Shown piece by piece: positions 61,716 through 64,000 of a DNA stretch of 64,000 nt. The stretch lies in NCBI GenBank assembly GCA_015063085.1, contig SUTD01000002.1, positions 1 to 64,000 of the forward strand, read 5' to 3'. The notes beneath the pieces were generated by a model. It ran no database searches and had not been told where the DNA came from. It saw nothing but the letters and a program-made list of their open reading frames with translations. Made by a program: the position numbers and the translations under genes. This DNA comes from Methanocorpusculum parvum. GTDB taxonomy: Archaea > Halobacteriota > Methanomicrobia > Methanomicrobiales > Methanocorpusculaceae. Positions within the stretch are counted from its first letter, which is position 1; the number at the start of each line of letters is the position of its first letter.

Positions 61716-61881
61716 AGTAAATCCAAACATATACTTTTCTTGGGAGAGATAATAAGGCTATTCACTGATATGAATAGAGACTTGTTGAATTTCTCTGATG
61801 TTTAAGAGTGAACACTATTGATTTGCTTATTTCTCAATAGTTTTGCCCTTATGGATTATATATGAGGGAGGAGGTTCGCGC

Positions 61882-62014
61882 GAGCCGGAGGTGAAAAGGC
61901 GAAACCCGAAGGGTTGAGGCTCGCCCATATCTCCGCGACGCCTAAGGAGCATGCGCCTAACGGCTTAGCTCCCCGGTGAGCCGGAGGTGAAAAGGCGAAA
62001 CCCGAAGGGTTGAG
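61882..62014. repeat. Hairpin element copy 3 between 37-bp direct repeats
   Basis: The direct repeats 61882-61918 and 61978-62014 are identical over 37 bases and begin GAGCCGGAGGTGAAAAGG. Between them is the 51-base element (61922-61972), with CCGCGACGCCTAAGG, stem arms GGAGC (61946-61950) and GCTCC (61968-61972), and inner GCC-TAAC-GGC. Interval length is 59 bases. Confidence 0.75.
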
Positions 62015-62412
62015 ACTTTTGACCGACGGCGAGCAAACAGGCAGCCGATTTCACTGCGAGGAGGTTTCCGAGCGGTGAAATGGGCGACCGAATGCCGCTG
62101 GTTTTTGCATTCCTGATGTTTCAGAGGTACGGAGGCGCGACGCGGAGGCTTGTCCGAGGCGTGCCGCCGGAGTTTTGGAAAGGTGAAGCCGCAGGTGCAA
62201 GCCGTCGGAGGACTCCTTTGGAGGGCGACGGTTGTACCGGAGGCTGAGCCGGCAATATGAATATACGCAAAACAGAGGAGTCCGGTTGGAGAGGATATCC
62301 AACCGGAGACATGAGAGTCTGATTTTGTGGGTTCTTATTCTCTTGCTGTCTTTTATTCAGATGATTCTATGAAGGCTTCAGCCACTATCATAAGAACCCA
62401 GCCCACCCAGAT

Positions 62413-62439
62413 AAGGAGACGTTTTATTGTCTCCTTTTT
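62413..62439 (+). terminator. Hairpin with T-run
   Basis: AAGGAGAC (62413-62420) pairs with GTCTCCTT (62429-62436), ending in five T. It looks like an intrinsic terminator for a plus-strand transcript, although none with a gene is seen upstream. Confidence 0.4.
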
Positions 62440-62488
62440 GATTACGGGCAGGATTTTCTTTAAGATTTGCTCGACGAAGTCAGATATT

Positions 62489-62596
62489 TTATGCCATAAC
62501 ATCCTGAGTATATGCTCAGCGCCCAGAACTCCGCGACGCCTAAGGGACATGCGGCTCCGCCTTAGTCCCGGGGTTATGCCATAGCATCCTGAGTAT
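62489..62596. repeat. Hairpin element copy 2 between 23-bp direct repeats
   Basis: TTATGCCATARCATCCTGAG and three more bases occur at 62489-62511 and 62574-62596, differing at one base. Between them is the element (62520-62569) with stem GGGAC (62544-62548) and GTCCC (62565-62569) and inner GGC-TCC-GCC. The right repeat is the stop codon and last codons of the gene at 62574. Interval length is 62 bases. Confidence 0.7.
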
Positions 62597-63071
62597 CAGC
62601 CCAGGTTTCGAGGGCTTCGAGGGTTGCGTCATAAGCGAATCCGGTGATAAGCATGTAGTTTTTGCCGATGGTGACGGTGAAGGAATCTTCGTGGACTTTG
62701 CTGCCGATGGTGACATTTTTGGTGCAGGAGAACTTGACTGCCCAGTACTCCTCACCATCTGCTTCTGCAGCAGATCCGCCAACTCCAGCAAGAGTTTCCG
62801 TGGTCTCGTTTCCGGTGAGGAGGGAAACAGCGTCGGAGAGCTGGTCGTTGGAAGTTCCATAGACGAGAATGTATCCGTTTTCGTCTCCGTCTGCGTCCGT
62901 ATAGTCGATTCTGGTCTTGTAGGTTGCAGAAGATCTGTTTTTGGTAATCTCCATGGTGGTATCATCTGCGAATGCCTGTACAAGGGTGTTGAAGGTGTTC
63001 ACGTCCGCGATTTCTGCGGTGTAAACCCTCTTTGCATTTCTGGAAATAGAAGTCTCAGAAAAATCTGCCAT
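62574..63071 (-). CDS. Unknown protein, tandem paralogue 1, 165 residues
   Basis: I do not recognise this family. It begins ADFSETSISRNAKRVYTAEI and ends TLEALETWADTQDAMA. The middle is acidic and strand-rich (YKTRIDYTDADGDENGYILV), then YWAVKFSCTKNVTIGSK with its only Cys, then DSFTVTIGKNYMLITGFAYD. No signal peptide or membrane helix. The start ATG 63071 is preceded by GGGAG at about ten bases; a longer frame to 63374 is leader only. It is about 45 percent identical by eye to the gene at 63407 and has the same length. Its stop directly abuts element copy 2. Confidence 0.7.
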   Translation of the reverse strand: MADFSETSISRNAKRVYTAEIADVNTFNTLVQAFADDTTMEITKNRSSATYKTRIDYTDADGDENGYILVYGTSNDQLSDAVSLLTGNETTETLAGVGGSAAEADGEEYWAVKFSCTKNVTIGSKVHEDSFTVTIGKNYMLITGFAYDATLEALETWADTQDAMA

Positions 63072-63311
63072 AGTAATTGCTCCCGAGAAGAAGTAAGAAA
63101 ACAGGTATTTTGAGAGGAGGTAGTCACCGGTTTTCTTACCTCCTCTCTCTACTACTCTATTGGGGTGAAAACGGCATAAATTCTTTGGGGCAAAAGTGAA
63201 TCCGGGAAAGAATAATGATTTTTTGGTTTTTACATTCTGATAAGAGGATGAAGAGAGAAGACCGGCAATAGTATTTGGAAAAAAGAAAATCCGAGGATAC
63301 AGTATCCCGGA
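63072..63311 (-). promoter_or_regulatory. Leader of paralogue 1 with competing inverted repeats
   Basis: On the mRNA strand the order is GAGAGGAGGTA (63147-63137), GTAAGAAAAC (63139-63130), TACCTCCTCTC (63122-63112) and GTTTTCTTAC (63102-63093), then GGGAG and the ATG. The first pairs with the third over 11 bases and the second with the fourth over 10 bases. As the two stems cross, they would form a pseudoknot or exclude each other. Confidence 0.5.
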
Positions 63312-63437
63312 TTTATGCAAGTACAGTCTGACCGTCCGCCCAGCGCCCGTATGCCCGCGACGCCTAAGGGGCATGCGCCTAACGGCTTAGCCCCAAGACA
63401 GTGGGTTTATGCAAGTACAGTCTGACCGTCCGCCCAG
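63312..63437. repeat. Hairpin element copy 1 between 32-bp direct repeats
   Basis: The direct repeats 63312-63343 and 63406-63437 are identical over 32 bases and begin TTTATGCAAGTACAG. Between them is the element (63344-63394) with stem GGGGC (63368-63372) and GCCCC (63390-63394) and inner GCC-TAAC-GGC. The right repeat is the stop codon and last ten codons of the gene at 63407. Interval length is 62 bases. Confidence 0.75.
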
Positions 63438-63904
63438 GTTTCAATCTTACTGAGGGTTTCATCGTAGGAGAAGCCGGTGACGCTCATGTACTCTTTACTG
63501 ATGGTGACGGTGAAGATATCTTCAATTTCTTTAGAGCCAACAGTAACGAGATTCGTACAGGAGAACTTTACCGACCAGGTATCATCCCTGCTGTCTTTGG
63601 ATGCGGAGCCGCCAATTCCTGCCATGGTTTCAGATGCTTCATTTCCTGCGAAGAGCGAGGAAGCCTCTTCAAGCTCAGAGGCGGTTGCTGCATAGATAAG
63701 AGCATATCCATGCTCGTTGCTTGCAGCATCAAAGTAGATGATTTTGGTCTTGTATGTCTCGGAAGACTTGGTTTTGGTAATTCCCATGGAAGTGTCGCCG
63801 GTAAATGCAGCGATTACTTCGTTGAATTTTTCAAATGTGGGAATCGGAGAAATGTACTCCCGTTTTGCATTCTGGGAGATTGCTGTTTTTGTAAAATCTG
63901 CCAT
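63407..63904 (-). CDS. Unknown protein, tandem paralogue 2, 165 residues
   Basis: A paralogue of the gene at 62574. It begins ADFTKTAISQNAKREYISPI and ends TLSKIETWADGQTVLA. The middle keeps YKTKIIYFDAASNEHGYALI, TWSVKFSCTNLVTVGSK (one Cys at the same place) and DIFTVTISKEYMSVTGFSYD. ATG 63904 has GGGAG about ten bases before it, partly inside a CTCCC/GGGAG hairpin (63915-63926). An in-frame extension to 63982 is leader. The two genes read in the same direction with 335 bases between, each with its own element at the stop codon. Confidence 0.7.
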   Translation of the reverse strand: MADFTKTAISQNAKREYISPIPTFEKFNEVIAAFTGDTSMGITKTKSSETYKTKIIYFDAASNEHGYALIYAATASELEEASSLFAGNEASETMAGIGGSASKDSRDDTWSVKFSCTNLVTVGSKEIEDIFTVTISKEYMSVTGFSYDETLSKIETWADGQTVLA

Positions 63905-64000
63905 AGTAATTAGCTCCCGAGGGAGGCAGAAAATAGCCGGAGATAGGGGGCGAGAACCGGAGCAGAATTCATTGTTCTGCATCCGGGGTGTAATTTCTGC
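63905..64000 (-). promoter_or_regulatory. Leader of paralogue 2, cut by the window end
   Basis: GCAGAA occurs at 63926-63931 and 63962-63967, and its complement TTCTGC at 63975-63980 and 63995-64000, so alternative stems are possible as in the leader of paralogue 1. Next to the start, CTCCC and GGGAG form a small hairpin over the ribosome site. The upstream part lies outside the window. Confidence 0.4.

Follow-up and report, generated by a model that had tools for sequence, protein, structure and literature searches.

A clade-restricted hairpin element of about 55 bp in Methanocorpusculum, inserted with duplication of its target

The window analysed here is a stretch of 64,000 nucleotides of Methanocorpusculum parvum (bases 1–64,000 of contig SUTD01000002.1, labelled C14 in our scheme, of the 1.4-Mb assembly GCA_015063085.1), and it carries three copies of a short hairpin element, each enclosed by a direct repeat of its own flank. 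These copies belong to a clade-restricted, non-coding family of about 55 bp that is mobile in Methanocorpusculum, and since counterpart sites lacking the element hold the repeat once, its insertion duplicates the target. An original prediction, made from the window alone, had placed three hairpins here with the compensated arms GGAGC/GCTCC, GGGAC/GTCCC and GGGGC/GCCCC, and had taken them for a mobile or self-copying element. Both the positions (61922–61975, 62520–62572 and 63344–63397, all on the + strand) and the compensated arms were recovered, with covariation beyond 500 shuffles in 46 copies. Insertion with duplication of long targets was likewise borne out by the counterpart sites, whereas for the self-copying part no source of activity was found. 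The features of the window are as follows.

61882–61921, +, left target copy of element 1 (40 bp), 39/40 identical to 61978–62017
61922–61943, +, conserved 5′ module of element 1, CGCCCATATCTCCGCGACGCCT; covariance-model match 61922–61975, E 6.8e-21
61946–61972, +, hairpin of element 1, GGAGC - ATGC - GCCTAACGGC - TTA - GCTCC, from parse and covariation
61978–62017, +, right target copy of element 1, pairing with 61882–61921
62489–62519, +, left target copy of element 2 (31 bp, with changes close to the element), 27/31 identical to 62574–62604
62520–62541, +, conserved 5′ module of element 2, CGCCCAGAACTCCGCGACGCCT; covariance-model match 62520–62572, E 4.5e-18
62544–62569, +, hairpin of element 2, GGGAC - ATGC - GGCTCCGCC - TTA - GTCCC, from parse and covariation
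62574–62604, +, right target copy of element 2, pairing with 62489–62519; 3′ end (stop TAA on the − strand) of open reading frame (ORF) 62574–63374 (−)
63309–63343, +, left target copy of element 3 (35 bp), 34/35 identical to 63403–63437
63344–63365, +, conserved 5′ module of element 3, CGCCCGTATGCCCGCGACGCCT; covariance-model match 63344–63397, E 9.2e-24
63368–63394, +, hairpin of element 3, GGGGC - ATGC - GCCTAACGGC - TTA - GCCCC, from parse and covariation
63403–63437, +, right target copy of element 3, pairing with 63309–63343 and spanning the 3′ end of ORF 63407–63982 (−)

At E ≤ 1 the covariance model, for whose construction these three elements were among the sequences used, matched exactly these three places in the window, all on the + strand. 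The flanking repeats are real at all three, but they measured 40, 31 and 35 bp, not 32, 23 and 37 as predicted. Rfam gave no match at the gathering threshold over the window, and none at E ≤ 1 over 61800–63500.

Distribution and target duplication

A covariance-model search, which the original prediction had put forward as a check on the family, brought further copies with matched stem changes. Scanning of 25 Methanocorpusculum genomes (E ≤ 0.1, at most 150 first-look candidates scored per genome, within which absences hold) yielded 154 matches, some of them partial, in six carrier genomes: G000 (21), G007 (25), G002 (30), G018 (32), G010 (18) and G023 (28). Here G denotes a genome, C a contig and L a retrieved stretch. 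Among the 19 other genomes of the genus, 18 had no match and G003 had a single weak one (E 0.05). Over part of carB the five other carriers were 87–91% identical to the window genome and the remaining genomes of the genus at most 79%; this is a comparison of identity and not a tree, G023 being matched over 171 bases only and G001 giving no match. An order-wide scan of 199 genomes under stricter filters, with at most 29 candidates scored per genome, returned the same six carriers and single weak hits in G099 and G170. An exact-pattern scan of one genome per GTDB species found 14 stretches, 11 in Methanocorpusculum and three in unrelated bacteria; the latter are ascribed to chance because no such hairpin follows them. 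The Methanocorpusculum metagenome-assembled genomes (MAGs) carrying the pattern come from ruminant colon or cecum. A viral carrier was considered and rejected: the exact pattern was present in no viral contig, and there were 19 pattern stretches, but the viral contigs held no relative of window 63407–63937 (−).

From the 154 matches, 116 were taken on to sequence retrieval, and nhmmer then gave 125 matches in the retrieved stretches, which are parts of genomes. Ninety-six of these had a full 5′ end and long flanks, and were reduced to 83 non-redundant copies by identical left 20-mers. A direct repeat of score at least 28 flanked 51 of the 83 full copies, and in 46 of the 51 the left repeat lay within 8 nt of the element start (CGCCC). 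Among 1500 random pairings of left and right flanks such a repeat turned up in 0.5%, whereas 46 of the 83 real copies have one. Repeat length in those 46 ranged from 17 to 139 bp with a median of 32–33 bp; some of the long repeats belong to tandem arrays and take in a portion of a previous element.

Five loci with counterpart sites holding a single repeat were inspected as alignments, and the duplication at loci with an aligned empty site was 18, 21, 31 and 32–41 bp. The target of element 2 of the window is present in single copy, ungapped, at three counterpart gene ends (G007:C14, G018:C7 and G007:C22). The copy G023:C169:10960 has an empty counterpart in G002:C6 with 98% identity over the flank and a repeat of 18 bp; the locus shared by G018:C9:25570 and G023:C225:2075, compared with G000, has repeats of 41 and 32 bp; and the locus of G023:C28:201, compared with G010:C120, has a repeat of 21 bp. 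At G000:C13:26553 the counterparts also hold the repeat once, its own left copy having decayed. Empty sites containing both repeats, which the original prediction had named as the pattern opposing mobility, were absent from the inspected alignments. These data show that the element is mobile and duplicates its target.

Several observations weigh against so simple a picture. No repeat of score at least 28 was found around 32 of the 83 copies, which may be old or may have been inserted without duplication. Element 2 and G000:C13:26553 share some of their counterparts, which are gene ends of one paralogous family, and orthology is not certain there. At G023:C169:10960 the insertion could be a gene conversion from a neighbouring paralogous site, as the repeat and linker resemble that neighbour. 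Next to a tRNA gene (recognised by eye), four genomes hold the element and G007 has an empty site, and no repeat is present there. Hits spanning the target were found for 16 of 49 copies, several of them being tandem copies in the same genome, and only loci inspected as alignments are counted above. Compared along its full length, the repeat in the best hit resembled the left copy more closely in five cases, the right copy in five and both alike in six.

Tandem arrays of target repeat plus element were observed at G018:C11:37975–38195 (L055), G002:C30:9033–9201 (L056), G002:C6:3270–3432 (L064) and G002:C49:52874–53076; the L055 array has three units with a period of 84, and the units differ by stem changes. 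The possibility that the 3′ arm itself serves as target sequence, raised by repeats starting TTAG or TTAA in L055, L056 and L026, was rejected, since by eye the left flank there resembles a truncated earlier element of a tandem array. One long-form copy, identical over the compared part, lies near the ends of four G007 contigs (C14:388963, C4:36, C12:39954 and C17:16096); with an identical copy at four contig ends of one MAG, assemblies probably break at these repeats.

Hairpin structure, strand and left edge

The element opens with a 5′ module CGCCC-RTAT-SCCCGCGACGCCT; after two free bases come an arm of roughly five bases and ATGC, then the apical hairpin, and after it TTA and the complement of the arm. 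It thus has two stems, the outer arm and the apical mini-hairpin, parted by the ATGC/TTA internal loop. Its ends are CGCCC and the 3′ arm followed by AA, so that the stems are internal and there are no terminal inverted repeats. Of 63 rows considered for the fold test, 16 were dropped by hand (three false regular-expression hits and 13 that were mis-parsed, truncated or had modules of a non-standard kind); of the remaining 47, one with a shifted 5′ end was omitted and 46 were aligned, a choice that favoured well-formed stems and counted G-T as a pair. CGCGAC and ATGC/TTA are conserved in these 46, whereas in a few copies outside the set ATAC/GTA or ATTC/TCA stands in place of ATGC/TTA. A subfamily with another 5′ module, CGCCCGTATCCGCCCCGGGAGCCT, on a like hairpin was also observed (G002:C6:62957, G023:C293:3264, G002:C49:52874 and G023:C19:4091).

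Stem cells paired in 92.4% of cases against 70.5% in shuffles, a percentage that is high partly by choice because the copies were selected as well formed. Cells changed on both sides numbered 87 against 24.9, pairs with a change on both sides 10 against 6.9, and the covariation score was 0.388 against 0.097. None of 500 shuffles reached the observed paired percentage, double changes, changed pairs or covariation; 17 of the 500 reached the number of further pair types. Covariation also exceeded that of every slid register, and by mutual information, with no structure assumed, the arm and hairpin pairs ranked first. Columns 5–19 covary as well (C-G in 39 copies, T-A in seven), which may reflect one subfamily. 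Two further stems were tried. A 5′ stem CGC/GCG (columns 1–3 with 14–16, in 107 copies) is weakly supported, with one distinct compensated form each at 1-16 and 2-15 and several copies unpaired. Pairing of the target flank with the 3′ linker in an outer stem was predicted but rejected, its mean helix score being 7.62 against 7.51 in shuffles (79 copies); such helices with a score of at least 10 were found in 16.5% against 10.9%, single cases such as G010:C105 not forming a class.

The covariation is almost purely Watson-Crick. Among the 368 cells of eight pair columns, 359 were Watson-Crick, one was G-T, four were A-C and four other, and the single G-T compares with 16.8 expected from the make-up of the columns (P 2e-8). 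RNA stems normally show G-U intermediates, so the near absence of G-T suggests that selection, or correction, acts on DNA. A looser parse tempers this: among 95 copies it gave 25 G-T against 798 Watson-Crick pairs, a weaker depletion.

The hairpins also turn over in place. When copies were grouped by flanks, 26 loci proved to be shared between genomes, and 20 of them had more than one apical hairpin sequence. Sixteen arm-pair positions at the grouped loci had changed on both sides with pairing retained; on the other side of the balance, nine had G-T and five a broken pair in some member. In the first of the 26 loci paralogous gene ends have been merged, and mis-parsed hairpins account for part of its G-T and broken cells. 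At the tRNA-adjacent site, GGGGC/GCCCC with GGCAACTTTGTTGCC in one genome stands against GGAGT/GCTCC (one T-G) with GCCTTCGGC in another, and at the 'acatctcc' site GAGGC/GCCTC stands against CGGGT/ACCCG. Arms and apical hairpins recur in differing combinations across loci among the copies listed.

Such stems might be kept without selection if their arms were mutually corrected by template switching during replication (quasipalindrome correction). The nearly pure Watson-Crick covariation and the hairpin turnover at 20 of the 26 loci would both agree with this, as would GCCGAAGGC against GCCTTCGGC at a shared locus, which is a clean loop inversion (GAA/TTC). By itself the process predicts neither the retention of the unpaired 5′ module and of the asymmetric ATGC/TTA loop in the 46 well-formed copies nor the strand bias of the loops described below. 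As an explanation of the stems we therefore consider it unlikely, although it may act together with the explanation we prefer.

Loop analysis parsed 107 of the 125 matches. A C-G pair closes 48 of the 61 distinct apical hairpins, and among the 48 distinct loops of 3–4 nt, GN(N)A was present in 25 on the bottom strand and in one on the top strand (P 6e-18 against 1/16). The bottom-strand tetraloops, from eight distinct hairpins, were GTTA (4), GTCA (2), GCTA and GAAA, and GAAA alone fits the RNA GNRA rule. DNA mini-hairpins with GNA or GNNA loops and two or more G-C pairs have been described as extraordinarily stable and resistant to nucleases (PMC4686876). The strand-biased occurrence of these stable loops points to the bottom DNA strand as the likely active form, and a stable small RNA is less favoured than a hairpin formed at the DNA level.

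The left edge of the element is exact and the right edge variable, and a target motif stands directly before CGCCC. Its consensus is T T T K Y Y A/C A N; in the 83 copies T was found in 73% at −7, G or T in 69% at −6, and a pyrimidine in 88% at −5 and 87% at −4. Comparison of left and right target copies in 49 pairs showed mismatches in 57% at −3, in 24–27% at −2, −4 and −5, and in 20–22% at −8 and −9, while −6 and −7 differed in 6–8% and −13 to −20 in about 4%; at −1 the target base was kept in 41 pairs. After removal of tandem and repeated pairs, 43 independent pairs remained, in which −3 differed in 27 (20 of the 27 to A) and −13 to −20 in 28 of 344 positions (Fisher P 1e-15). Positions −6 and −7 here differed in 11 of 86, more than in the set of 49. 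The left copy is taken as the altered one because, at the four loci where an aligned left copy was intact, the empty site agreed with the right copy close to the junction. Since whole repeats favour neither copy, as noted above, the direction of change depends on these four loci. The pattern suggests a short primer-template duplex in which mismatches were settled to the template. Alternatively, with no template involved, the left motif could be the recognition site of an enzyme.

Genomic setting and candidate mechanisms

Copies are mostly intergenic, often beside the 3′ ends of genes, and 15 of the 83 lie inside a called ORF. By a crude ORF finder, the 61 copies for which both neighbours were called were placed between rightward genes (21), leftward genes (19), convergent genes (15) and divergent genes (6), and the 294 intergenic gaps taken for comparison were 75 rightward, 84 leftward, 55 convergent and 80 divergent. 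Copies between divergent genes are under-represented (6/61 against 80/294, P 0.003). The stop codon of the left gene is 1 nt away in six copies, and that of the right gene within 8 nt in 11. Both observations would suit maintenance of the stems after insertion by the host, as stabilising mRNA 3′ hairpins like those of repetitive extragenic palindromic (REP) elements. This is improbable: between genes of the same direction the element points either way equally often (21 against 19), its stems have almost no G-T pairs, and such a use would leave the conserved 5′ module unexplained.

In the window, elements 2 and 3 adjoin the minus-strand ORFs 62574–63374 and 63407–63982, and their right repeats include each stop codon, so that each ORF stays intact, with a piece of its end left on the far side of the element. 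Neither ORF has a Pfam match at E ≤ 0.001; together with G000:C13:26428–28048 they encode paralogous small proteins, and the 3′ ends of these paralogous genes are repeated targets of the element, with related DNA in other carriers. The region 61860–62260 of the window is GC-rich and contains another, purine-rich repeat (GAGCCGGAGGTGAA...CCGAAGGGTTGAG) of which a part forms the target duplicated at element 1; G023:C98 and G000:C13 have similar stretches.

As a whole explanation we tentatively propose, at a little short of an even chance, a mobile element of about 55 bp whose bottom-strand DNA hairpin is copied into the target by a target-primed or template-switch process; the mechanism itself we infer. 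Its functional form would be the single bottom DNA strand (5′-GGGGCTAAG...GGGCG), folded so as to carry a highly stable GNA/GNNA mini-hairpin. Copying of this strand would be primed, from the GGGCG end, by a target strand that terminates in TTKYYAAN, and this would give the exact left edge. The primer-template duplex would span about 9–10 nt, anchored at −1 and at −6/−7, and mismatches between the anchors would be settled to the template, rewriting the left copy. The growing strand would then rejoin the target some tens of nucleotides upstream and re-copy it, which would account for the variable right edge and repeat length. The enzyme may be host replication or repair machinery, or a clade-specific factor. 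In a more radical form, which we hold as a speculation on the unlikely side, the hairpin would propagate itself as single-stranded DNA without a dedicated enzyme, being recognised by shape and not by sequence, copied by the replication machinery through annealing at the T-rich motif, rewriting the last target bases and leaving duplications of random length. Neither an enzyme nor a single-stranded DNA intermediate has been seen, which counts against the mechanism we prefer.

Target-primed reverse transcription also leaves one exact and one variable end, with T-rich priming and variable duplications. The same marks in the present family would fit a SINE-like (short interspersed element) mode, with a bottom-strand RNA ending in GGGCG, reverse transcription primed by the target and a second nick giving variable duplications. 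We regard this as rather unlikely. Besides the depletion of G-T pairs in the stems and the lack of an Rfam match, the loops GTTA, GTCA and GCTA are not of the RNA GNRA type. Reverse transcriptase does not track the element either, RVT_1 being found in three of six carriers (G000, G002 and G018) and three of 19 others (G020, G008 and G011), all incomplete to differing degrees. The enzymes at G000:C19:117842 (L193) and G002:C66:18121 (L192), like that of the non-carrier G008:C3:133197 (L194), stand beside variable-protein-like ORFs and look by eye like those of diversity-generating retroelements.

The sequence-specific left edge and the conserved CGCGAC and ATGC/TTA positions could instead reflect an unlisted recombinase or transposase acting on the folded element, with two independently placed target nicks and the left motif as its recognition site. 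A second repeat family would be in keeping with this, as though one machine served both. This family B (79 matches to a 17-letter core with at most one mismatch) is found in the same six genomes and in none of the other 19; it reads roughly GRCGAGAGC..GCTCGAGYCATGAGCAAG..CTTGCGA, forms two successive hairpins with variable letters and is dispersed, for instance at about 9300–9700 of L132, and it is also nested in the element (family A) at GCGAC in the long form. The confinement of A and B to one group suggests a shared cause. The absence of terminal inverted repeats and of a fixed repeat length speaks against a recombinase, the alteration at −3 would be left unexplained, and we judge it an unlikely agent. 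No moving enzyme was found in a search limited to Y1_Tnp, PF23343, RVT_1 and Cas1, other transposase and recombinase families not being searched. Y1_Tnp (PF01797) was absent from all 25 genomes, with 5 of 14 control genomes positive and the carriers 69–92% complete, and a REP or IS200/IS605 transposase was accordingly rejected as mover; the HUH family PF23343 was rejected too, being present in three of the 25 genomes, all non-carriers, and in none of the six carriers.

An insert of about 55–60 bp between some 30 bp of duplicated target, together with Cas1 in all six carriers, would superficially resemble off-target spacer integration by Cas1-Cas2. This is hardly credible: Cas1 is present in all 25 genomes, the 19 others included, repeat length varies from 17 to 139 bp, and the insert is conserved and not random.

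Relation to known small repeats

The family is not named in the open-access literature searched, in so far as its texts were available, which does not by itself prove it unpublished. CRISPR spacer integration has a fixed duplication length and a variable insert, contrary to the variable duplication and conserved insert found here. The bottom strand of integron attC sites folds to a hairpin with unpaired central bases, in which structure is kept and letters vary. Each insertion of the present family duplicates the target, unlike attC, and attC boxes were not recognised in it, although no search aimed at them was made.

Miniature inverted-repeat transposable elements (MITEs) are characterised as non-coding, dispersed, shorter than 200 bp and flanked by target duplications (PMC2229807). 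The present family differs in having no terminal inverted repeats, in not being A+T-rich and in its unfixed duplication length (17–139 bp in 46 copies); no parent transposon was found for it among the few families searched. REP elements of the GTAG- and CGTC-tagged kinds are short palindromes mostly downstream of coding regions, and CGTC REPs have one stem of 8–9 bp, a terminal CGTC tag and a tail that is mostly CCA (PMC3733652). By eye the bottom strand of our element also carries CGTC beside a stem, but between two stems and not terminally, and it differs from REPs in having two stems with variable letters and no Y1 transposase match in the 25 genomes. The word 'duplication' does not occur in the text of the REP paper (PMC3733652).

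Mitochondrial GC clusters are short GC-rich repeats held to be mobile and flanked by AG or ACT only (PMC4478555), and the double and repetitive hairpin elements of Allomyces are held to be mobile and said to lack duplications (PMC2800124). Like them, the family is short, GC-rich or hairpin-forming and mobile, with some members tandem or double; unlike them, it is archaeal and has long target duplications. A close likeness is to YPAL/RU-2 of Yersinia, an intergenic palindromic repeat of about 168 bp with internal inverted repeats that is not A+T-rich, and whose target duplications vary from 3 to 26 bp, backed by empty and filled sites (PMC2229807). Both are small and intergenic with inverted repeats inside, neither is A+T-rich, and in both a variable duplication is shown by empty sites; the core of the present family is shorter (about 55 bp) and its flanking repeats longer. 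Turnover of hairpin letters and the altered left copy are features of our family on which YPAL was not compared.

As a kind, the family stands beside small palindromic repeats such as YPAL. It is set apart by the altered target edge, by the longer duplications and by the conservation, at the DNA level, of shape rather than letters.

Small palindromic repeats are common in prokaryotes and, to our knowledge, how they spread is mostly unexplained. Here there are many copies confined to one clade, some with empty sites in close relatives, so that insertion can be read base by base. Three marks allow the mechanism to be tested: the local alteration of the target, the DNA mini-hairpin loops specific to one strand, and the length and variability of the duplications. 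If no dedicated enzyme is involved, this would be a minimal mobile genetic element, and an enzyme-free hairpin, if true, would represent a mode of DNA mobility unlike that of transposases, retroelements and recombinases.

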